DNA of 64,000 nucleotides, from assembly GCA_028823235.1 (NCBI GenBank), contig JAPKBW010000001.1:62001-126000 (forward strand). Direction: 5' to 3'. Position numbers and translations under genes: made by a program. Origin of the DNA: Longimicrobiales bacterium. GTDB taxonomy: Bacteria > Gemmatimonadota > Gemmatimonadetes > Longimicrobiales > Gaopeijiaceae. Below are positions 5,814 to 39,527 of this stretch, piece by piece. Numbering within the stretch: the first letter of the stretch is position 1; each line of letters begins with the position of its first letter. The notes beneath the pieces were generated by a model. It had not been told where the DNA came from and ran no database searches. It saw only the letters and a list, made by a program, of their open reading frames with translations.

Positions 5814-6796
5814 CAGGGGAGCCTCCTCAGCACGGTCTGCGCGAGACCGAACTCGGCGACGAGCAGGAGAAAACCCAGCCCGAGCGGCAGTGGGAACTCC
5901 TCTCCGAACTGAGTGAAATTCTCGACTTCGATCTCGGTGCGCTCAAGCTCGTCGATCTCGGTATAGATAGAGGCGAGGCTTTCGTTGTCCGTCGCCCGGA
6001 AGTAGCGCCCACCGGTCAGTTCGGCCATTTCCTGCAGCGTCGCCTCATCGATGTCCACACGCATGTTCGCGTAGCGTGTGCCCCCAAGCGGATCGGGCAC
6101 CGGCACCCGGGCCGTGCCCTGCGAGCCTGCACCGATCGTATACACGCGAATGCCCAGCGCCTGAGCCATCTGTGCGGCAGTTACTGGTCCGATCTCACCC
6201 CGATTGCTTCTGCCGTCCGTCAGGAGCACGACGACCTTGGACTCTGCGGGAGACGCTTGCAGCCGCTTTACGGCGGTCGCGAGTCCCATGCCAACCGCGG
6301 TGCCATCCTCGATCATACCGACATCGAGTTCGTCGAACAGAGACTGCACGACAGCGTAGTCAAAGGTGAGTGGCGCCTGTGTAAAGGCCTGGCCAGCAAA
6401 TGCCACGAGGCCGATGCGGTCGTTCCTCCGACCGGCAACGAAGTCGATACCGACTGCCTTGGCTGCTTCCAGGCGGTTCGGTTCCAGATCCTCCGCGAGC
6501 ATCGAGCTCGAGACGTCGAGCACCATGACGATATCGATGCCTTCGGTGAGCACATTCTCCGTAGTGATTCCGGTCTGAGGTCGAGCGAGCGCCACGATGA
6601 ATGCTGCCAGCGCCAAGCCTCGCAACGTCGGCGGCAGAATCGCCATAACGCGGGCCTTGCTCACCCCTGCCGCCTGGATGTCCGACACGGCCGAGTAGCG
6701 GATTGCTGGCCGGCGGCGGCGTGCCCGCACCCAGAACAGAACAGGAAGCGCCACCAGAAGGCCAAGTACGAGTGGGTCCTCGAATCGGAACATCAA
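5813..6796 (-). CDS. batA: BatA von Willebrand factor A membrane protein
   Basis: A 327-residue paralogue of BatB with the same plan: N-terminal transmembrane helices (about 9-23 and 57-72), a vWA domain and a C-terminal helix (about 305-322). MIDAS residues are DVSSS near residue 93, Thr in QAPLTFDY and Asp in LLTDGRSNRGE. The start overlaps the upstream gene by four bases (6793-6796). BatA and BatB side by side, each followed by TPR genes, is the standard Bat order. Both carry the motif SMLAED-x-x-PNRL after the MIDAS Ser, showing their common origin. Confidence 0.88.
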   Translation of the reverse strand: MMFRFEDPLVLGLLVALPVLFWVRARRRRPAIRYSAVSDIQAAGVSKARVMAILPPTLRGLALAAFIVALARPQTGITTENVLTEGIDIVMVLDVSSSMLAEDLEPNRLEAAKAVGIDFVAGRRNDRIGLVAFAGQAFTQAPLTFDYAVVQSLFDELDVGMIEDGTAVGMGLATAVKRLQASPAESKVVVLLTDGRSNRGEIGPVTAAQMAQALGIRVYTIGAGSQGTARVPVPDPLGGTRYANMRVDIDEATLQEMAELTGGRYFRATDNESLASIYTEIDELERTEIEVENFTQFGEEFPLPLGLGFLLLVAEFGLAQTVLRRLP

Positions 6797-28476: not shown

Positions 28477-30285
28477 ATGAAGTCCATCTGTCAGAGATTC
28501 ACGGGGCCCTTCGGGCTCCTCGCCGCCACGGCCCTCGTGGCGAATGCTTTTGCGGTGCAGGACGTTGCCGCACAGCAGCAGGCGACGGTCGTGCCGAACG
28601 CCCCTGCCCTTGAGTGGGATCCGAACGATCCGCGGATCGGCCTAGGTGCCGGCTGGCTGGACGCTGAATCAGCGATCAGCGGCTTGGAGTTGCTCGCTGC
28701 GATTCCGCGGCCAGACGGCTTCTTCAACCCCACGACGCCCGCGGATGGTCGCTTCAACAACACGGACCTCGCCTTCAGTGGTGACCTGCTGGTTCAGGGC
28801 AACTACAACGGCTTCCAGCTCTTCAACATTTCGGAGCCGGCCAACCCGACGCTCGACCTGTCGGTCGTGTGCCCCGGTGGACAGGGTGATGTCTCGGCCT
28901 ATGGCGACTTGATCGTCATGTCCGCTCAGGAGACCCGCGGTCGGCTGGACTGTGGTATCGAAGGGGTCACCGATTCGATCAGCGCCGAGCGCATGCGCGG
29001 CGTCCGGATCTTCGACGTTTCGGACATGAGCAACCCGACACAGGTCGCGGCGATTCAGTCGTGCCGTGGTTCGCACACGCACACCATCGTCACGGACCCG
29101 ACGGACTCTGAGAACATCTACATCTACATCCAGGGCACGTCACGTGTGCGGCCCGGTGATGAGCTAGCCGGCTGTTCCGGTGGCGAGCCCGAAGAAGACG
29201 CGAACACCGCGCTCTTCCGCATCGAGGTCGTGAAAGTCCCACTCGCGAACCCGGCAGCCGCCGAGATCGTGAACATGCCACGCATCTTCGCGGACGATGA
29301 CGGCAACATCGGTGGTCTCTGGCAGGGTGGAGATCACGGCGAAGGCACGCAGAGCAGCCGTCGCACGAACCAGTGCCATGACATCACGGCATTCCCGGAT
29401 ATCGGTCTCGCCGGTGGTGCGTGCTCGGGTAACGGGATCCTCCTCGACATCTCCGATCCGGAGAACCCGATGCGAATCGGTGAGGTCGCGGACCCGAACT
29501 TTGCGTACTGGCACTCCGCCACGTTCAATAATGACGGCAGCGTCGTCATATTTACAGATGAGTGGGGTGGTGGTTCCGCTCCGCGCTGCCGTGCGACGGA
29601 CCCGGCCACATGGGGCGCCAACGCGATCTTCCGGATCAGTGAAGGCGGAGACATGGAGCTGGCCGGCTACTACAAGCTGCCAGTTCCGCAGACCGACACC
29701 GAGAACTGTGTCGCCCACAACGGGTCAATCATTCCGGTGCCTGGCCGAGACATCATGGCACAGGCGTGGTACCAGGGTGGCGTCTCACTCATGGACTTCA
29801 CGGATCCCGAGAACGCCTTCGAGATCGCGTTCTTCGATCGCGGCCCACTCTCGATTGAGTCGCTCTTCACCGGCGGATACTGGTCCACGTACTGGTACAA
29901 CGGTCGCCTCTACGGCGCCGAGATTTCCCGTGGTATCGACGTCTTCCGGCTGACCCCGAGTGAGCACCTTTCAGCAGCAGAGATCGCCGCCGCTGAGTCG
30001 ATCATGATGGGTCAATTCAACGCGCAGTTGCAGCCGCAGGTCGAGTGGGCGCCTACCAAGGACGTCGCGCAGGCCTACCTGGATCAGATGGTCCGGGGCA
30101 ATCGCATTCTCAACGATCGCGCACAGGAAATTCAGCGGACGGTGAACAGTGGATCGGCGGCGCAGCTCAACGCACTGGCTGCGAATCTCGAAGCCGATGC
30201 AGTTCAGATCGAATCAGGCACGCTTGGTGGAGACGCCGTGCGCATGTCGAAGCTCGCCGCCGTCCTTCGCGGGATGGCCATGTAG
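28477..30285 (+). CDS. LVIVD-repeat exported protein
   Basis: A 602-residue secreted beta-propeller protein. Signal peptide (cleaved near DVAAQQ) follows a strong ribosome site (GAGAGGTGAAGGA). LVIVD-type repeats read as x-D-I/V-S-D/E-P-x-N-P: FNISEPANPTLD, FDVSDMSNPTQV, LDISDPENPMRI, MDFTDPENAFEI. Several Cys residues and His-rich positions (SHTHTIVTDPTD, YWHSATFNND) may bind metal. The last 110 residues form a separate helical domain. Function is unknown; relatives occur with DUF305 and other surface proteins. It ends before a clear terminator. Confidence 0.82.
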   Translation: MKSICQRFTGPFGLLAATALVANAFAVQDVAAQQQATVVPNAPALEWDPNDPRIGLGAGWLDAESAISGLELLAAIPRPDGFFNPTTPADGRFNNTDLAFSGDLLVQGNYNGFQLFNISEPANPTLDLSVVCPGGQGDVSAYGDLIVMSAQETRGRLDCGIEGVTDSISAERMRGVRIFDVSDMSNPTQVAAIQSCRGSHTHTIVTDPTDSENIYIYIQGTSRVRPGDELAGCSGGEPEEDANTALFRIEVVKVPLANPAAAEIVNMPRIFADDDGNIGGLWQGGDHGEGTQSSRRTNQCHDITAFPDIGLAGGACSGNGILLDISDPENPMRIGEVADPNFAYWHSATFNNDGSVVIFTDEWGGGSAPRCRATDPATWGANAIFRISEGGDMELAGYYKLPVPQTDTENCVAHNGSIIPVPGRDIMAQAWYQGGVSLMDFTDPENAFEIAFFDRGPLSIESLFTGGYWSTYWYNGRLYGAEISRGIDVFRLTPSEHLSAAEIAAAESIMMGQFNAQLQPQVEWAPTKDVAQAYLDQMVRGNRILNDRAQEIQRTVNSGSAAQLNALAANLEADAVQIESGTLGGDAVRMSKLAAVLRGMAM

Positions 30286-30334
30286 GACTCGTTCTTTCTT
30301 GGCCGACCCGTCTGAGAATCGCAGGTTAACAGAA

Positions 30335-30366
30335 GGGCCCGGCACCGTGAGGTGTCGGGCCCTTTC
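30335..30366 (+). terminator. Strong rho-independent terminator
   Basis: Twelve-base stem (GGGCCCGGCACC and GGTGTCGGGCCC, one G-T pair) with a GTGA loop and a TTTCTT tail. It ends the LVIVD-protein transcript 49 bases after its stop and, being nearly symmetric, may also protect against the convergent amidohydrolase transcript. Confidence 0.85.
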
Positions 30367-30477
30367 TTGATGAATCATCCTGAAGCCAGACTCAGGTGGC
30401 TTCGTCAACCTCCTGGAGGAGCCGCATGAGCATCTCGAATAGGATCGCGCTGAGCTTGATCCCCTTCAGCGCCCTGA

Positions 30478-31815
30478 TCACCTGCGATTCACGGGCAGGT
30501 CGAGGGCTCCTCGGTCGACCACAACGCCGGCCTTGATGACGATCGCGATATCCTGCGCGTTGCTGATGTCAGCAAGCGGATCGCTGTTCAGTAGGACCAG
30601 GTCCGCGAGCTTCCCTTCTTCAATTGATCCGAGCTCCCGCTCCTTACCCAGAAACGCCGCCGCGTTGAGCGTTCCGATCCGGATCGCTTCGACAGCCGGG
30701 ATCCCACCCTCGACCATCAGCTCCAGCTCACGGTGAGATGCCGGACCCGTGGACTGATCCGAACCGAGGACGAGCGAGCCGCCCGCATCCACGATCAATC
30801 TCAGGTTCTCCTGAGCGACGGGGGTCATGACCTTCATCCAGGTCGTCCACGTACGCGCCGCGTACTCGTCACGAACGGTCGTACGCAGCCGCTCGATCGT
30901 CTCGGGCTCATAGACATCCTGATAGATGGGCCTGTCCAGAAATTCAGAGTGCTCCACAAGACGACTGTATCCCTCACCGATCGTGAGTGTCGAAACCATC
31001 GGGGTACCAGTGGATGCCATCAGGGCGACGAACTCCTCACTGACCGGTCCCTGGATTATCGGGTGGGCCAGGGTGTTGATGCCCGCCTCGATCGCCTGGC
31101 GCGCGCGGAATTCGTGTGAAATGTGTACCGTCGTGCGGACACCGCGGGCGTTCAGATACGTTCCGATACGCTCCATGAGCTCCGGATCGAGCAGCGGAAT
31201 GAGCGGCCGGGTCCCCCAACCGTGCTCATCAAACGTCAGCTTCACCATGTCGGGATCGCGCGCCAGATGAGCGTCGAGCGCCGGAATTGCCTCAGGCCAG
31301 CTATCGACTAGCGTCGCACCGCGGCCACCCCCATGCCCTCCCGGCGCCGTGACCACACCACCGCCCGCAAAAATGCGTGGAGCTTCGATGTCGCCTGACC
31401 GCTCACGCTCCCTCAGTCCGAAGATGTAGTCGGGAAGGTTCCCGGCGTCGTACACACTCGTAATCCCACTGTACAGGAATCCGTGAAGCGCCCGGATACC
31501 GGCCTGCTCGTTCATGCCGCCCTGGCCCCGAGCCCCGGTGAGATGGATGTGCATGTCCATCAGACCTGGAATCAGATACTTGCCCCGACCGTCGATCCGC
31601 TGCGTACCCGACGGCGCGTCGATCTCCGTCCTAGACACACGGACGATCCGACCTGCCTGCACCAGCACGTGCCGATTCTCCATGGCAGGCCGACCCGTGC
31701 CGTCGATGACGGTCACGTTCTCAACGAGTAGATCGTTCGACTGGGCCGTCGCATTCGGCGGGAAGGCGATGACGATGACGAAAACCGCAACGACCAGGGT
31801 GTTGATGTTCTTCAT
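30478..31815 (-). CDS. Exported amidohydrolase
   Basis: A 445-residue metal-dependent hydrolase of the amidohydrolase superfamily (imidazolonepropionase/prolidase-like branch) with a signal peptide cleaved near NATAQ. The HxH metal motif is in LMDMHIHLTGARG (about residues 94-98). Later conserved His residues are in TTVHISHEFRA (about 228-232) and the family ending LGSDQSTG holds the metal Asp (about 363). The C-terminal beta strand (GKLADLVLLNSDPL) is the usual second half of the flanking beta sandwich. It probably cleaves amide or peptide-like substrates in the periplasm. Divergent from the S9 peptidase gene. Confidence 0.87.
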   Translation of the reverse strand: MKNINTLVVAVFVIVIAFPPNATAQSNDLLVENVTVIDGTGRPAMENRHVLVQAGRIVRVSRTEIDAPSGTQRIDGRGKYLIPGLMDMHIHLTGARGQGGMNEQAGIRALHGFLYSGITSVYDAGNLPDYIFGLRERERSGDIEAPRIFAGGGVVTAPGGHGGGRGATLVDSWPEAIPALDAHLARDPDMVKLTFDEHGWGTRPLIPLLDPELMERIGTYLNARGVRTTVHISHEFRARQAIEAGINTLAHPIIQGPVSEEFVALMASTGTPMVSTLTIGEGYSRLVEHSEFLDRPIYQDVYEPETIERLRTTVRDEYAARTWTTWMKVMTPVAQENLRLIVDAGGSLVLGSDQSTGPASHRELELMVEGGIPAVEAIRIGTLNAAAFLGKERELGSIEEGKLADLVLLNSDPLADISNAQDIAIVIKAGVVVDRGALDLPVNRR

Positions 31816-31973
31816 AGCTGCGCCCTCCGGCGGCGCGAGCCTGCGATGTACCGAACAGTCTTCACCCCCGGGCGCGGTTTGTCATGCAGTTGGCACTCTC
31901 GACGGGGTGGCGTAGTCTGAGCCGGCGCCCGAACCGGGCTGCGGTCGACGGCTCTCAGGTCAGGCACACGAAC

Positions 31974-34091
31974 ATGAAGAAACTTCTACGACCAGCCCTC
32001 ACCCACGTGGCGATGCTCGTCGCAGCTTCCGGGGTCGTGACCCCGGCCTGCGCCCAGGCCCGGCCGTTCACTGCGGAAGACATGCTGGATGTGGTTCAGA
32101 TCAGTGGCCTTGTCGCCCTGGGGCTCAATGGAGATCGACTCGCCTTCATCCTCCCGGACCTCTCGGACGACTGGAACGTCGCAGAGCGGGTGCAGGTCGG
32201 TGCGGTCCACATCATGGACGTGTCCGGCTCGGGAGAACGCCCCCAGCCAGTGGCTGGAGCAGGTAGTCGGAATTCGTATCCGGTGTTCTCTCCAGACGGT
32301 AGCCAACTCGCATTCTTCATAGACTCCGCCGAAGGTGGGCGCCTCGCGATCCTCGAGATCGCCTCAGGCCAGGTCAAGGAGGCCGGCACACCTTTCTCTG
32401 GCAAAGCCACACGCGCCCCTCAGTGGGCGACGGGCGACAGAGTGGTCTACGCCCGACCCGACATCCCTGCCCCCACGCCGGAACAGCAGCGGATCGAGGT
32501 GCTTACAATTTCCGACCCACTTCCCGGCGATGCGTACTTCCAGCGGGACTCGCGAGCGGGTCTTCGCATGGCGGACCTCAGGACCGGCACCGAGCGCGCA
32601 CTCGTGCCCGATGGCAGTCGGCTAGGTTCGTTTGGCGTGTCGCCGAGTGGCCAGTACCTGCTCGGCAACGTCGGTGGGCAACAACGAGCCCAACTCTGGG
32701 ACCTGTCTACTGAAACCGACCCTCGGGGCGTGGGAGCCGGCGCGGATCGACCGGCGTGGCTGGTGGACGGCCGACTGCTCGTACGTGCCCCCGGACGCTT
32801 GGTGGCGATCGATCCGGGTCGAGCGAGCGGACCACCCACGCATGTCGTGGACCTCAGTCTCCCGATCGCAGGCCTCACCGAATCCCCCGACGGCCAGCAC
32901 TTCGCAGGCCTTGTTGCCGATCCCTCGCTGACCGACCCGGAAGTCGAAGCGCCCCGGCCGAACATGTACACGGTCGCTCGACCCTTCCTCGACGCGGTGC
33001 TGTTGTCCGTGCCGAGCGGGGCGATCACGAACCTGACCGAGGACATTTCGGACCAGATCAGGTCGCTCACCTGGGCTCCGGAGGGTGATGCGATCTACTT
33101 CATCGGTACGGACAACGCGACGTACGACGAGACGTTGTACCGGTACGATGTTCAATCGGGCGAACGTACCGTGCTCAGCACCGGGAAGGAGGCGATCGAT
33201 CGGATCATCCCCACGGTTGATGGCCTCCTCGCGTCGATCCAGTCAGCCACGACGCCACCCGACCTCTGGTCGATCGACGGAACCGACGGGGCGCGCACGC
33301 GGGTGACTGATCTCAACCCACAGCTGTCCGACATCGATTTCAGCGAGCCTTCGCTCTTCCATTTCGAGAGCGAGGAGGGTGACCGCCTCGGCGCACTCCT
33401 CTACCGGGCCACCGGCGACGTCCCACCGGACGGCGAGCCGGTAATTACGTACGTCTACGAAAAGCTGACGCCCGGCATCCACCGATTCCAGCCGCGCCAA
33501 CAAATCTTTGCGACGCATGGATATGCCGTACTTATGCCGAACGTCATGATCCGTGTGGGGCAGCCCGGCACATCGTATGTGAGCTCCGTCGTGCCCGCGA
33601 TTGCAGCCGTCCGTGACATGGGTTTCACGAACGGAAAGTCGTGCATGTGGGGAGGCAGCTTCGGTGCCTACGCCACGTCCTTTGTCATCACCCAGACACA
33701 TACCTTCGATTGTGCCGTCTCCCGTGCTACCCCACCTGAGCTCTTCCGGAACTGGGCAAGCGGGCGAGATCGGGACTCGCGAAACATCGAAAACGGTCAG
33801 GCCCGCCTCGGTGGCAGTCCGTTCGAGGTGCAAGATCGCTACATCTCTCAGTCAGCGTTCTTCCATCTCGACAAGGTCGAGACACCGGTCCTCATCACAC
33901 ATGGCGTGAAGGACTTCACAATCCTTTATGAAGAGGGCGCGATGATGTTCTATGCGCTACGCCAGCTCGGGAAGGAAGCCACGCTCGTCACATACCGTGA
34001 GGGTGATCACAGCCTCTACCGACACTCGCGCGCCGACGCGCTCGACGTGCACCAACGCATGCTCGACTGGTTCGCGTTGTATATGCGATAG
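31974..34091 (+). CDS. S9 family peptidase (prolyl oligopeptidase-like), exported
   Basis: A 705-residue serine peptidase: signal peptide (near CAQARP), a seven-bladed propeller with WD40-like PD40 segments (SYPVFSPDGSQLAFFID, LTWAPEGDAIYFIG), and a C-terminal alpha/beta hydrolase. Catalytic Ser is in MWGGSFGAYATSF (about residue 562), Asp in THGVKDFTILYEEG (about 645) and His in REGDHSLYRH (about 679). These enzymes trim short peptides. Start ATG at 31974 gives the signal peptide. Its 3' end is duplicated as a broken copy at 35937-36103. Confidence 0.92.
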   Translation: MKKLLRPALTHVAMLVAASGVVTPACAQARPFTAEDMLDVVQISGLVALGLNGDRLAFILPDLSDDWNVAERVQVGAVHIMDVSGSGERPQPVAGAGSRNSYPVFSPDGSQLAFFIDSAEGGRLAILEIASGQVKEAGTPFSGKATRAPQWATGDRVVYARPDIPAPTPEQQRIEVLTISDPLPGDAYFQRDSRAGLRMADLRTGTERALVPDGSRLGSFGVSPSGQYLLGNVGGQQRAQLWDLSTETDPRGVGAGADRPAWLVDGRLLVRAPGRLVAIDPGRASGPPTHVVDLSLPIAGLTESPDGQHFAGLVADPSLTDPEVEAPRPNMYTVARPFLDAVLLSVPSGAITNLTEDISDQIRSLTWAPEGDAIYFIGTDNATYDETLYRYDVQSGERTVLSTGKEAIDRIIPTVDGLLASIQSATTPPDLWSIDGTDGARTRVTDLNPQLSDIDFSEPSLFHFESEEGDRLGALLYRATGDVPPDGEPVITYVYEKLTPGIHRFQPRQQIFATHGYAVLMPNVMIRVGQPGTSYVSSVVPAIAAVRDMGFTNGKSCMWGGSFGAYATSFVITQTHTFDCAVSRATPPELFRNWASGRDRDSRNIENGQARLGGSPFEVQDRYISQSAFFHLDKVETPVLITHGVKDFTILYEEGAMMFYALRQLGKEATLVTYREGDHSLYRHSRADALDVHQRMLDWFALYMR

Positions 34092-34410
34092 TTCTGGTGT
34101 AGACCTGTAAGTTATCTGTTTACAATCACTTATGGCTTTATTTTTCTGATACGTAGATCGATTCTAATCAGAATACCATTCTAACGACCGTAAAGTTCTG
34201 CTTTATGCCGACGCGAACACGGAGGCGACAACACGTCTCATGTGGGCCACAGCATCGAACCGCCTCGACGCCACCTGAGTGCTCTTGGAGGCGGGTGCAA
34301 CCCGAACTTAGATTCTCATGTTCCCCTAAACACAGTTCGCCTCATGGGCCCCCACAAGTACTGCGAGCAGATCGCTAGGGCTCTTTTTCATAAATAACCC
34401 AAACCAAAAG
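34092..34410. other. AT-rich spacer after the S9 peptidase gene
   Basis: A stretch visibly richer in A and T than its surroundings, especially 34110-34210 and 34380-34405. No gene is seen. Its first part resembles 35762-35850: both have TGCGATAGTTC (34084-34094 and 35762-35772) and then similar AT-rich sequence ending in TTATG-x-C-x-TTATTT. This looks like a second copy of the DNA that follows the peptidase stop. The 3' part should hold the promoter of the 34423 gene. Confidence 0.45.
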
Positions 34411-34422
34411 ATGTACCGCCCT

Positions 34423-35562
34423 ATGATCTCTCGAAACCGTATCCTGACTCTTGCGGCCCTATCTGCCGCATTCGGGCCAGCAACCCTTACAGCACAGGAT
34501 CAATGGCTTAGCGAAACCAGCTGCTCGGAGGTAGCCCACGCCATAGTGAACGAAGGGATCACGGCCTGGGGCAGCGTTGAGCATGGCCGAGCGAAAGGCA
34601 TGTATCAGGCAGCACTCGTCGTAGACCCTGACTGCACAGCCGCAAAGATCGCGCTAGCTGACATGGCGAACGGCGCAGAATGGGGAACGCGATCCGCCCA
34701 GATGGAAGCACTGGCCAATGTCACCGGTACCCCGGCAGAAATGGCTTGGCTTGATGTGATGAAGTCCTCGGACGGGCCGAGCACGTCATACGAAAAGGCC
34801 CAGGAATCTCCCGATGATGCCCTATTTCATTACTGGGGATCATGGAGTGAAGAATCAGGACCAGTCATAAATGCCCTCGCAGCCTTTGCGGAGCGCTTTC
34901 CCTCTCTTGCAGGGGGAGCGTTCAACACACTGGCATATGCCTACGCTCAGGGCGACGGCGTGGACGTTGATGAGGTCAAATCCAGAGAATTCCTCCGTTC
35001 TTATTTGAGGCTATACAACGAAGCGAATGCACACGACTCCTTCGCTGAAATCTCAGCCATCTTCGGCGATTACGAAGGCGCTCTCCGACACCAACGCCAC
35101 GCCGTAGACCGCGGCGGCGTAACCGTATTCGGTGAGCGCACAGGGATGTACTCGCGTCTCGGTAATAAAGAGGAATACAGGCAAGCAGTGGTAGCCGCCG
35201 TCGAGGTTCTCGCCAATCCCGACGCACCCGAAGAAGAAACCGCTGCAGTCCTGTCGGATCAGTCCGTCATGTGCTTATCGAGCATGGTACCTTGCTCGGT
35301 CATGACCGCTGCGGAATACATGGCCACCGCAAACGGCACAGAGTGGCTGTCGATGTCCGCAAATGACGTCGACATCATTTTCAACGACATGATGACCCTC
35401 GCAGTCGCGACCCATCACAACACAGCCCAGTACATGCTAGATGGCCAGACTGTGGATTATTCGGGTCGCGTATCTTCCGTCTGGGAGGTTACGAATCAGG
35501 AGGTCAGCTTGATAACTGCAAACTGGGCACCCATGGGTGGTGCGGGCCTCCCAGGCAGCTGA
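34423..35562 (+). CDS. Exported repeat-helix protein of unknown function
   Basis: A 379-residue secreted protein if started at ATG 34423 (34411 is the other candidate, four residues longer). The signal peptide is cleaved near ATLTAQ. The mature part is helical with TPR-like pairs: CTAAKIALADMANG, FNTLAYAYAQGDGV, FGDYEGALRHQRHAV. Four Cys residues are present (SETSCSE, DPDCTA, VMCLSS, VPCSV). Codons use more A and T in third positions than neighbouring genes, and it sits between the intact S9 gene and its broken copy, so it may have been acquired. No family name can be given. Confidence 0.68.
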   Translation: MISRNRILTLAALSAAFGPATLTAQDQWLSETSCSEVAHAIVNEGITAWGSVEHGRAKGMYQAALVVDPDCTAAKIALADMANGAEWGTRSAQMEALANVTGTPAEMAWLDVMKSSDGPSTSYEKAQESPDDALFHYWGSWSEESGPVINALAAFAERFPSLAGGAFNTLAYAYAQGDGVDVDEVKSREFLRSYLRLYNEANAHDSFAEISAIFGDYEGALRHQRHAVDRGGVTVFGERTGMYSRLGNKEEYRQAVVAAVEVLANPDAPEEETAAVLSDQSVMCLSSMVPCSVMTAAEYMATANGTEWLSMSANDVDIIFNDMMTLAVATHHNTAQYMLDGQTVDYSGRVSSVWEVTNQEVSLITANWAPMGGAGLPGS

Positions 35563-35615
35563 CAGAGGATCAACACCCAGCCTGCTGCTCTGGCTGATTC
35601 CGGCGGAAATCACAC

Positions 35616-35644
35616 GGGCCCACCTCCATGACGAAGGTGGGCCC
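35616..35644 (+). terminator. Probable terminator
   Basis: A perfect 10-base inverted repeat (GGGCCCACCT and AGGTGGGCCC) with a 9-base loop, 53 bases after the stop of the repeat-helix protein gene. The tail after it is only weakly T-rich (ACTTCGTG), so efficiency is uncertain. Confidence 0.6.
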
Positions 35645-35936
35645 ACTTCGTGTCGTCGCCTCCGTTCGTATTCGACCGGAAGCCAAACTAGGGTTCATAC
35701 CACATTGAGTTTACAGGCAGGAGAACGCTAGGGAACTAAAGGACTTTAGGCGGTGGGGTCTTGCGATAGTTCGAGCGTGAACTCGTAAACCATTTTTTCA
35801 CAAACGATTATGACGTTATTTGCTTGGTCATCATATCGATATGATGCACTCTGACTAGAAAACCAGCTTAATTTCAGGGTTAATCGTCTTTGCCCCCCCT
35901 CCCACCAGCAGAGGGGGTGGGACTAGTCCCACTCAA

Positions 35937-36103
35937 TTATGAAGAGGGCCCGATGATGTTCTATGCGCTACGCCAACTCGGGAAGGAAGCCACACTCGTC
36001 ACATACCGTGAGGGTGGTCACAGCCTTTACCGGCACCTCGCGCGCCGATGCGCTCGACGTGCACCAACGCATGCTCGACTGGTTCGCGTTGTACATGAGA
36101 TAG
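35937..36103 (+). pseudogene. Truncated copy of the S9 peptidase 3' end
   Basis: These 167 bases match the last 166 bases of the S9 gene (33926-34091) with nine substitutions and one inserted C near 36036. Seven of the nine changes are silent in the parent frame. The other two give Ala to Pro and Asp to Gly, the latter just before the catalytic His. The insertion shifts the frame after LYRHL. The parental stop context is kept (ATGAGATAG). The match starts abruptly at 35937. This is the tail of a once-functional second peptidase gene whose rest has been lost. Not expressed as a useful protein. Confidence 0.88.
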
Positions 36104-36150
36104 CAGATTCCACCACGTTCCCGTTCACGTGACTACCCTGGTACTACGCC

Positions 36151-37116
36151 ATGCCAAGACTGACTCGCCACACCTCGATAGGTGTACTCCTCCTAGTTGC
36201 TCTTTCCGGATGTTCTACCTCCGAGCAGGACGACCCTGACATGAGCGGAGCCGCACCAACGAGCCTCCCGGACGCTCCTGCGATCGAGGCGACGAACGCG
36301 TTCTACTACTACGACGACATTGAGGCCGCGTGGGCGTTCTATCGCGACGTGCTCGGCTTCGAGACCGTGGCGGACTATGGCTTCGCCAAGATCATGCAGG
36401 TCGCACCGCAGTCCCTTCTGACCCTGGTGAACGCCGCCGATGGCATGCACACCGCCGACGAGCCGAAAAGCGTCACACTCGCCATAATGACAGAAGACGT
36501 GGAGGCTTGGTACGCCCACCTCAAGGCGAACGACGTGCCGATGCGCGGTGAGCTCACGATACAGGAGGGAAGCGCCCACGACGGTTTCGTCGCGATCGAC
36601 CCGGAGGGGTACTTCCTCGAGTTCGAGTGGTTCAACGAGCATGAAGAGAATGTTCAACTCTCTCCACAGCTCGCCACGATTGAGCCGCTCCAGACGGACG
36701 CGCGCCCAGACGGACTCGGCATCACGGGAACGGTGCTCTGGCTCTACTTCGACGAGATGGCACCCGCTGAAGTGTTCTATGAGGAACTGCTCGACGTCGA
36801 CATGATCGTCGACCAGGGATGGGCGAAGGTCTACCCGGTCTCGCGGACCGGTTACATCGGCCTTGTCGATGCGAGCCGCGGCCTGCACCAGGCCACACAG
36901 GACAAGGGCGTCACGATGTCGTTCCTGACCCAGGACGTCCGTACTTGGCTGGACCGTGTGCGTGCGTTGGGAATCGAGCTGCGCACGCCCGAAATCATGA
37001 TGGAGTCTGATCTGGTCGAGACCTTCGTAGCGTACGACCCAACTCACTACTTCATGGAGTGGGATACTTTCCTCGACAAACCTGGAAATGAACGACTGAT
37101 TGAGGCGATCCGCTGA
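36151..37116 (+). CDS. Lipoprotein with two VOC domains
   Basis: A 321-residue lipoprotein (signal LLLVALSGCSTSE) with two consecutive vicinal-oxygen-chelate domains, residues about 50-175 and 190-315. Each has the domain pattern: FYYYDDIEAAWAFYRDVLGF then DPEGYFLEFEWF; and LWLYFDEMAPAEVFYEELL then DPTHYFMEWDTF. The Glu after the final aromatic stretch is a likely metal ligand in each. VOC proteins include glyoxalases and dioxygenases; export as a lipoprotein is unusual for those. The stop overlaps the ATG of the next gene (TGATG), which is broken. Confidence 0.82.
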   Translation: MPRLTRHTSIGVLLLVALSGCSTSEQDDPDMSGAAPTSLPDAPAIEATNAFYYYDDIEAAWAFYRDVLGFETVADYGFAKIMQVAPQSLLTLVNAADGMHTADEPKSVTLAIMTEDVEAWYAHLKANDVPMRGELTIQEGSAHDGFVAIDPEGYFLEFEWFNEHEENVQLSPQLATIEPLQTDARPDGLGITGTVLWLYFDEMAPAEVFYEELLDVDMIVDQGWAKVYPVSRTGYIGLVDASRGLHQATQDKGVTMSFLTQDVRTWLDRVRALGIELRTPEIMMESDLVETFVAYDPTHYFMEWDTFLDKPGNERLIEAIR

Positions 37117-37724
37117 TGGACCAAGAACGCATGCACTTCGTGGGAATCGTCGGGACGGTGCGTCCGGGGAACTAAACGTCAAAAGCGCTGGCGTTGGTCG
37201 CGGACTAGGTCAACGCGACAGAGCATTGCTCCTTCGAGACGATCGACGCCGCAGACCTGAATCTCCCCTCCCCCGGGCAGCCCGCGACCGATGGTGCGGA
37301 GCGCCTGAAGGCCGCGGTCGCCGGTGCCACAGGTGTCGTTTTCGCGACGCCGGAATACCACGGCTGCTTCGCCAGTGTCACCAAGCTGGTCATCGAGAAC
37401 CTGGACTTCCCTTCGGCTCTAGCTGGCAAGCCAGTGGGCTTGCTCGGTGTTGCGGCAGGCCGGATCGGAGCGATCAAGTCGCTTGAGAGTCTGCGCGGGG
37501 TGTTCCCCCATACCGGGGCGATCGTTCTACCGGGCCCCATCTCCGTAGCGGGTGTACACACGGTCTTCGACGCTGATGGGAAGTGCCTGGACGCCGGTGC
37601 CGAGAAGGCGATTCGTTCCCTCGGGACCGCGATGACACACTGTGCGCAGCAGAATGTGTGTCCAAGGATGGCGCTTGAGGCGATGGTGCAGGCAGGCGCC
37701 CGCGTTTGCCGCGCCCCCGCTTAA
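37116..37724 (+). pseudogene. NADPH-dependent FMN reductase gene with two in-frame stops
   Basis: Starting at the ATG that overlaps the VOC-gene stop, one uninterrupted frame of 203 codons encodes a full-length FMN_red-family flavodoxin-fold protein, broken by TAA at 37173-37175 and TAG at 37206-37208. Visible family features are the FMN phosphate loop GTVRPGN (normally GS-x-R-x-x-S) just before the TAA, ATPEYHGCFASVTKLVIENL (FMN ring and dimer contacts), and AAGRIGAIKSLESLRGVF. The sequence around both stops continues in the same frame (TSKALALVAD), so these are point changes and not frameshifts. A fragment from about 37434 could start internally but lacks the FMN site. Confidence 0.85.
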
Positions 37725-38920
37725 CGGGGCACGAGTTCAGATACACGGGTGACACCGCTGCATGCGGTCGCCTCCAGCGAGGATCGCAGGTCCTCCCAAA
37801 GGTCCTCCAGATGCTCTGCGCCGACGGAGATTCGAATGAGGTCCTCGGGGATTCCGAGGCGACCTCTCTCCTCTTCTCCCATTGCCTGATGGGTCAGCGA
37901 CGCTGGCCGCTGAACGAGGGTGTCTACGGCACCAAGGCTGACTGCCGGCACCGCGATCCGAAGGTGGGTGATGAATTGGTCCGCCCGCTGGGCGCCTCCA
38001 TCGAGGCGGATCGTGATCATGGTCCCAGGTCCCGCCATCTGCCGGTCCACTACCGCATGATCCCGGCCCGACAGGCCTGGATACCCGACCATGTTCACCT
38101 CAGCGTGAGCCTGCAGGCGGACGGCGAGCTGCCGGGCGGTCTCCTGCTGCGCACGAACACGAAGACCAAGCGTCTGGATGCCGCGGCAGAACAGGTGCGC
38201 AGCGATCGGATGAAGAATCGCTCCGGTGGCGATTCGAACCTGACGCAGTCTCATCGCAGTATCGGGGTTTCGCGTGGTGACCACTCCCCCCATCGCGTCT
38301 CCATGTCCGCCGATGAACTTGGTGGCGCTATGGATGGCGTACTCGGCCCCGTGCCGAAGCGGCTGTTGGAGAATCGGTGTGGCGAACGTCGAGTCCACGG
38401 CGACCGGCACACCCTGAGCATCATGCACGAGGCGTTCGATATCCGTGACCGTGAGCAATGGATTGGACGGCGTCTCCAAGAGAACCAGAGCGGTATCAGG
38501 CTTGAGCGCTTCGCGAACCTCTGCCGCCGCGGCCCACGTCACACGGGACCCCAGGAGACCGGAGGCCAGGAGGTGATATGTGCCGCCGTAGAGGGGGGGC
38601 AAAGCTACGATGTGAGAACCGCGGGACTGCGACTCCAGCACGAGCGCAGCAACCGCGGCCATGCCCGAAGCGAAACACACCGAGTCTGCCCCCCCTTCGA
38701 GGCCAGTCATGCGCTCCTCGAACTCGCGGCAGTTCGGATTGGCGAGCCTCCCGTAGATCGGATTCGCCGCTTCGGCAGCTCCCGCGGCGAATTCCTGCAT
38801 GCTCGACATCGCCGCCACGGGGTCGGGCGTGCGGTAGGTAGTCGACAAGTCGATCGGGCGAACATGTGACAATCCATGTGCCCCGCCCTCTCCTACGATC
38901 AAACGCGTATCCGTGTGCAT
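37721..38920 (-). CDS. Cys/Met metabolism PLP enzyme (cystathionine gamma-lyase/synthase-like)
   Basis: A 399-residue fold-type I PLP enzyme of the trans-sulfuration family. Motifs: YGRLANPNCREFEERM (about 55-70), the phosphate-binding ASGMAAVAAL (about 88), PSNPLL (about 154), the PLP Asp in VAVDSTFATP (about 174) and the Schiff-base Lys in HSATKFIGGHGDAMGG (about 200). The late SLGAVDTLVQRPASLTH motif is complete. It could be methionine gamma-lyase, cystathionine gamma-synthase or lyase. Divergent from an Lrp-type regulator, so amino-acid-responsive control is likely. Its stop overlaps the end of the broken FMN reductase gene. Confidence 0.87.
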   Translation of the reverse strand: MHTDTRLIVGEGGAHGLSHVRPIDLSTTYRTPDPVAAMSSMQEFAAGAAEAANPIYGRLANPNCREFEERMTGLEGGADSVCFASGMAAVAALVLESQSRGSHIVALPPLYGGTYHLLASGLLGSRVTWAAAAEVREALKPDTALVLLETPSNPLLTVTDIERLVHDAQGVPVAVDSTFATPILQQPLRHGAEYAIHSATKFIGGHGDAMGGVVTTRNPDTAMRLRQVRIATGAILHPIAAHLFCRGIQTLGLRVRAQQETARQLAVRLQAHAEVNMVGYPGLSGRDHAVVDRQMAGPGTMITIRLDGGAQRADQFITHLRIAVPAVSLGAVDTLVQRPASLTHQAMGEEERGRLGIPEDLIRISVGAEHLEDLWEDLRSSLEATACSGVTRVSELVPR

Positions 38921-39014
38921 CTCGATCCCCCCTGGATGTGGTAGTCATAGACTATGGCAACCATGCACACGATGTTCACACTTCACGCATTTATTTCACC
39001 AATAACGGGCCACA
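38921..39014. promoter_or_regulatory. Divergent promoter between the PLP-enzyme gene and the Lrp regulator
   Basis: This 94-base gap must hold both promoters. It contains an AT-rich patch (CATTTATTTCACCAATAA, about 38989-39006) close to the regulator start and a partly repeated CATGCACAC/TGTTCACAC pair (about 38963-38980). Lrp family regulators commonly bind such divergent regions. The exact site cannot be defined by reading. Confidence 0.4.
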
Positions 39015-39485
39015 ATGGATCTACCTGACAAGGATCTTCAGATATTACGTGAATTGTCGCATAATGCGCGTATTACGAATAAGAATCTGGCCGAAAAGGT
39101 GGGACTATCGCAGTCCGGGTGCCTCGAGCGGGTACGACGGCTTGAGGAGAGAGGCGTACTCCTGGGCGCATACGCCGCGATCGCCCCGGAAGCGGTGGAC
39201 GTGGGGGTCCAAGCCCTGATTGCGGTCCGCCTGAAGCGGCACACGCGAAGAGCGGTCGCCACGTTCCGCTCCTACACCCTGACTCTGCCAGAGGTGAGTG
39301 CAGTCTTCCACGTGACCGGAGACTACGATTTCTACGTTCATGTAGCAGCCCGTGACATGAACCACCTGCGCGACTTTGGTCTGGATTCGCTAACCACCCG
39401 GGCCGAGGTGGCGAGGATCCAAACCTCTTTGATGTTCGAAGCCGTGAGCCGACCGGGGTGGCCCGTTCTCCGAGCCCCTGCCTGA
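39015..39485 (+). CDS. Lrp/AsnC family transcription regulator
   Basis: A 156-residue regulator: winged HTH at residues 1-60 (DLPDKDLQILRELSHNARIT, then LAEKVGLSQSGCLERVRRLE as the recognition helix-turn-helix) and a C-terminal RAM/AsnC ligand domain (about 70-145, with VFHVTGDYDFYVHVAARDM forming the effector-binding turn). It probably binds amino acids and controls the divergent Cys/Met PLP enzyme gene, by the usual local pattern of such regulators. It is 42 bases upstream of hldD, which may be read through from the same promoter. Confidence 0.92.
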   Translation: MDLPDKDLQILRELSHNARITNKNLAEKVGLSQSGCLERVRRLEERGVLLGAYAAIAPEAVDVGVQALIAVRLKRHTRRAVATFRSYTLTLPEVSAVFHVTGDYDFYVHVAARDMNHLRDFGLDSLTTRAEVARIQTSLMFEAVSRPGWPVLRAPA

Positions 39486-39527
39486 CCTCCAGTGGGCCAG
39501 TAGCAAGCGTCTGTTATCTTTGCCGCC

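Follow-up and report, generated by a model that had tools for sequence, protein, structure and literature searches.

A duplicated S9 peptidase gene end on either side of a foreign-looking interval, a probable insertion scar in a Longimicrobiales genome

Short duplications of a gene end beside inserted DNA have been described in several settings. In the e14/icd case, two sources give a 165-bp duplication with 12 nucleotide changes and two replacements, the upstream reading frame being intact (PMC11148124, PMC6379469). Among clones from E. coli conjugations, single crossovers involving a trimmed circle usually left a partial gene duplication by the insert; the duplication PCR product was obtained from 56 of 60 clones, and the 14 that were sequenced had duplications of 109-950 bp (PMC3240628). 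Gene ends pushed back by a one-sided route have also been proposed for Vibrio T6SS clusters and Rhs loci (PMC5361080).

The locus described here lies in a 64,000-nucleotide stretch (the window) of contig JAPKBW010000001.1 from a Longimicrobiales bacterium; coordinates are those of the window, and the genes, gene tails, X repeats, interval and cassette given with coordinates lie on its plus strand. An intact gene for an S9 family peptidase (prolyl oligopeptidase family) occupies 31974-34091, encoding 705 aa from the ATG at 31974 and matching Pfam PF00326 at 5e-21. As the first-pass annotation had reported, the final 166 bases of this gene (33926-34091; copy 1, the in-frame 3' end) are found again at 35937-36103 (copy 2, a fragment of the 3' end that differs by two replacements and carries one inserted base). 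We detected the repeat independently and then aligned its two members, which reproduced both the coordinates and the counts: 166 versus 167 nt, nine substitutions, and one extra C at 36036/36037. The local alignment scored 292, whereas the best of 500 dinucleotide shuffles scored 56. The homology ends on the right exactly at the stop codon and on the left abruptly at 33926/35937, and the 67 nt lying 5' of copy 2 match the S9 gene before its tail at chance level (68 of 300 shuffles score equally). Between the two tails, again as annotated, is the gene for a helical-repeat protein of 383 aa (34411-35562).

Seven of the nine substitutions are silent, including the CGA/AGA difference that had been pointed out before, and the other two are the replacements A656P and D678G. 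For these codons, the silent share expected under neutrality is 0.21-0.29, and the observed share has P = 0.0005-0.003 with ts/tv weights of 1-8, on what is a small sample; dS is ~0.23 on 35 silent sites and dN ~0.016. These values bear out the proposal that the sequence was under selection for protein function before it was cut. The replacement D678G does lie just before a His, as claimed: it precedes H679, which aligns with the His that follows an Asn in the solved S9 peptidase 8wt1_A and which we take to be the catalytic His of the enzyme. Since the residue preceding the aligned His is Asn in 8wt1_A, position 678 varies within the family.

The closest relatives of the S9 gene (58% protein identity), from G032 and G148, both of one other genus, served as outgroups for polarising the changes. 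The one close S9 locus found in named genomes, DQPL01000135.1, has the same tail protein as G148 and probably duplicates that record; the independent outgroup sequences were therefore counted as two and not three. By this comparison, five sites plus the first base of A656P appear derived in copy 2 and two sites in copy 1, with CTC/CTT assigned to neither copy; both replacements fall on copy 2, and the extra base was assigned there as well because copy 1 reads in frame. In copy 2 alone, 4 of the roughly 6 derived changes are silent, a weak excess (P 0.02-0.06). With derived changes present in both copies, neither tail is simply a recent copy of the other. Judged from their sequences, the tails appear to have diverged mostly as working gene ends, and the function of copy 2 would have been lost late.

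Such a pattern could be produced by a tandem duplication of the S9 gene, with long coexistence of both copies under selection, after which the second gene was deleted down to its last 166 bp and the 383-aa gene came to lie between the two. The mostly silent evolution of both tails and the changes on both branches agree with this history, which we nevertheless consider fairly unlikely: it requires a duplication, a large deletion ending at 35937 and a separate gene insertion, and no second full or longer S9 copy was found at the locus or in relatives. Neither spacer between the tails and the 383-aa gene holds further S9 sequence beyond chance (the score of the left spacer was equalled in 9 of 100 shuffles), and no tandem S9 genes occur among 121 family genomes, the three that have the gene giving a single match each at E<=1e-120. 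"Truncated, frameshifted copy" is an apt description of the fragment, but its being the remainder of a second, tandem S9 gene is only one reading, none of the relatives examined having two S9 genes at this locus.

Copy 2 ends 47 bp upstream of a native glyoxalase-family gene (36151-37116; Pfam PF00903), whose order with a 602-aa gene and an epimerase gene is conserved in relatives. The 602-aa gene (28477-30285) is also native, having 83-84% identical counterparts next to the glyoxalase gene in G007 and G013, and it bounds the entire accessory region on the left. Both of these genomes are complete across the locus, and the 602-aa, glyoxalase and epimerase genes are adjacent with none of the 30286-36150 stretch between them, which identifies this stretch, containing an amidohydrolase gene, the S9 gene, the 383-aa gene and the S9 tail, as extra DNA of this lineage. 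The same order is present in G010, where the 602-aa gene is interrupted by a contig end; the G011 contig begins inside the glyoxalase gene and runs on into the epimerase gene; in G004 the glyoxalase gene is present without the 602-aa and epimerase neighbours in the stretch read; and the remaining eight of the 13 other genomes of the genus have no glyoxalase match at 1e-40. The amidohydrolase is absent from these 13 genomes at 1e-80, and none of them has the S9 gene at E<=1e-50. G007 and G013 are therefore without the S9 gene too, and an S9 site free of the insert was not seen. A second extra stretch (37117-39500) lies between the glyoxalase and epimerase genes and is missing in G007 and G013; with two accessory stretches between conserved neighbours, the locus counts as a gene-gain hot spot. 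This variable region also holds a second decaying gene, presumably reductase-like: its reading frame (37116-37727) has two in-frame stops close to the start, and its last 96 aa have no Pfam match.

The inserted interval (34092-35936, 1845 bp), missing at the same locus in G007 and G013, is set off by a break in G+C, with 0.48-0.49 in its spacers and 0.57 in the 383-aa gene, against 0.63 in the S9 gene and 0.60 in the glyoxalase gene. The 383-aa protein, which we take to be exported from its appearance, gave weak Sel1/TPR-like matches. Its gene and the GC hairpin after it (z = -2.6) make up an accessory cassette (34360-35653), with homologous DNA at other loci in G001, G003 and G013. These three of the 13 other genus genomes carry the gene at 80-83% identity (the 383-aa genes of genus members are ~79% identical at the DNA level), and in 98 genomes searched, its own included, it was also found at 45% identity in G025 and G057, with weak partial matches in three more. 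In G001 and G003 the gene is located just before tRNA-Ser(tga), a site that G011 has without the gene; in G013 it occupies another, unrelated setting that is not syntenic with the G001/G003 site. Since the DNA homology of the relatives is confined to 34360-35653 at most, both spacers are private to this genome, including the repeats X1 and X2 that they contain (see below). An S9 gene beside the 383-aa gene was not seen in the surroundings read in G001, G003, G013, G025 and G057.

The idea that the 383-aa gene always duplicates its upstream neighbour was rejected after a search for repeats around the gene in G003, G013, G025 and G057; the sole match bridging the gene in G003 was 32 nt long and 75% identical, at chance level, in a stretch that is partly native in the gene-free G011. 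A 42-nt repeat in four copies (positions 6089, 8141, 10736 and 12080 of locus L046) surrounds the distant relative of the 383-aa gene in G057, in an unrelated setting. In the window itself, directly before copy 2 (35894-35933), there are two adjoining GC-rich hairpins, one with the palindrome TGGGACTAGTCCCA.

On balance, the two tails are probably a scar left when DNA was inserted by recombination into the 3' end of S9. Behind this reading stand the repeat, its silent bias, the changes on two branches, the compositional break, the lack of the interval at this locus in relatives and the fact that the 383-aa gene is accessory; a direct repeat of a gene end is present on both sides of foreign-looking DNA. 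The amidohydrolase-S9 pair would have entered first, between the 602-aa and glyoxalase genes of the lineage. The resident S9 gene would then have recombined with DNA of a close relative in which the 383-aa gene came after a diverged S9 end. This would have happened through either a single crossover with a circle whose S9 sequence was limited to the final ~166 bp, or an event in which one end paired by homology while the other was joined illegitimately. The S9 gene would have been completed by one of the tails; the other would have been shifted 1.85 kb downstream, losing its frame and drifting. Copy 2 is most likely the resident tail, because it still abuts the glyoxalase leader; this assignment, like the recombination route, is one that we infer.

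The position of copy 2 before the native glyoxalase gene, taken with the foreign-looking interval, fits a displaced gene end better than the remainder of a tandem S9 gene, and the distribution of changes, about six on copy 2 and two on copy 1, is the pattern of two diverged alleles. The order of S9 body, first tail, insert, second tail and native flank is what a crossover with a circle would yield, or a one-sided event with an illegitimate join. The 5% divergence of the tails would fit a donor closer than the genus members examined, with their ~79% identical 383-aa genes. None of the genomes examined has either the donor arrangement, in which the 383-aa gene comes after S9, or the pre-insertion state (S9 next to glyoxalase), and there is no clear microhomology at the junction 35936/35937.

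A second repeat, overlooked in the first-pass annotation, is located just inside the tails. The first 8 nt of the AT-rich X1 (34084-34179) are at the same time the final 8 nt of the S9 gene (TGCGATAG); X2 (35762-35865) is the second copy of the repeat. Both open with TGCGATAGTTC and give a gapped match of ~100 bp, with a score of 61 against a maximum of 54 (0 of 2000 dinucleotide shuffles as good); without the shared first 11 bases, the score was reached by 16 of 2000 such shuffles. The G+C content of 34092-34190 is 0.35. X1/X2 is an older direct repeat than the S9 tails, nested within them, and is not accounted for by one simple event. One possibility is an earlier scar of this type, with a third S9 end cut to 8 bases; another is that the copies are the paired arms of an attachment site. 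That the repeat begins at the S9 stop region also hints that the 3' end of S9 had been duplicated once before, a point in favour of the tandem duplication considered above. Two other identities for X were rejected: a dispersed repeat, with two copies in this genome and none in 58 other related genomes under strict filters, and a known RNA, with no Rfam match and ordinary single-strand folds (z -0.5, -0.7). X2 has a weak match in L046 of G057 (score 40; best of 10 shuffles, 33).

Alternatively, the interval may be what is left of a small integrative element that attached in the 3' end of S9 and restored the gene by supplying a copy of its own, the way e14 behaves in icd. The anatomy is close to that of e14/icd, the gene end being duplicated and the upstream reading frame intact, and AT-rich repeats lie just inside both tails. 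Against this, the 383-aa gene is the only gene of at least 150 aa in the interval and matches no recombinase family, and no recombinase was found there; no integrase family appeared among the 20 protein stretches scanned with Pfam between 19310 and 49495 of the window; searches of viral contigs, plasmids and phages did not find the 383-aa gene; and X was found nowhere else in 59 genomes. We regard an origin from such an element as quite unlikely, and find it just as doubtful that X1 and X2 were its attachment-site arms, with the recombination genes lost or acting in trans. With no integrase found, the locus is not classed as an e14-type element. A long shot is a minimal recombinase-free cassette, using a protein gene's 3' end for attachment, that brings its own replacement end and has X1/X2 as AT-rich arms; that the 383-aa gene is moved in trans between such sites in the family (relatives labelled Gemmatimonadetes) is an equally slim prospect.

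An assembly artefact, in which two metagenome strains were joined through the repeat, seems very improbable. The genome is in 90 contigs (97.16% complete, 1.91% contamination), and the tails share 44 identical bases through which strains might be joined; however, the junction of X2 and the second tail shares no word with the S9 body for such a joining, and every piece lies within one 232-kb contig.

Overall, the locus is an ordinary recombination scar in our reading, and insertion scars of this sort are an ordinary kind of genome scar. The locus offers a legible record of an accessory gene entering a bacterial chromosome via the end of a neighbouring gene, and it cautions against taking every short gene fragment beside an insert for a decayed duplicate, since such a fragment may be a displaced gene end. 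Its import beyond genome evolution is small unless the X arms turn up elsewhere.

Compared with the known systems, the locus is most like e14 in E. coli icd (with its icdC fragment) in having a short 3'-end duplication beyond the insertion, 165 bp in e14 and 166 bp here, mostly silent differences with two replacements, and an intact upstream gene. Unlike e14, a prophage with an integrase, the insert is 1.85 kb long, carries a single gene and lacks a recombinase, and the fragment that was displaced has a frameshift. As in single-crossover insertion and homology-facilitated illegitimate recombination, the gene used for pairing is partly duplicated beside the inserted DNA; those events were seen with plasmids in the laboratory, whereas here such an event is deduced from one genome without the donor. 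The locus also resembles the orphan 3' ends at T6SS effector and Rhs loci, where an old gene end is displaced downstream by an incoming module, but here no toxin-immunity module was seen, and a single event would have displaced the end of an unrelated peptidase gene.
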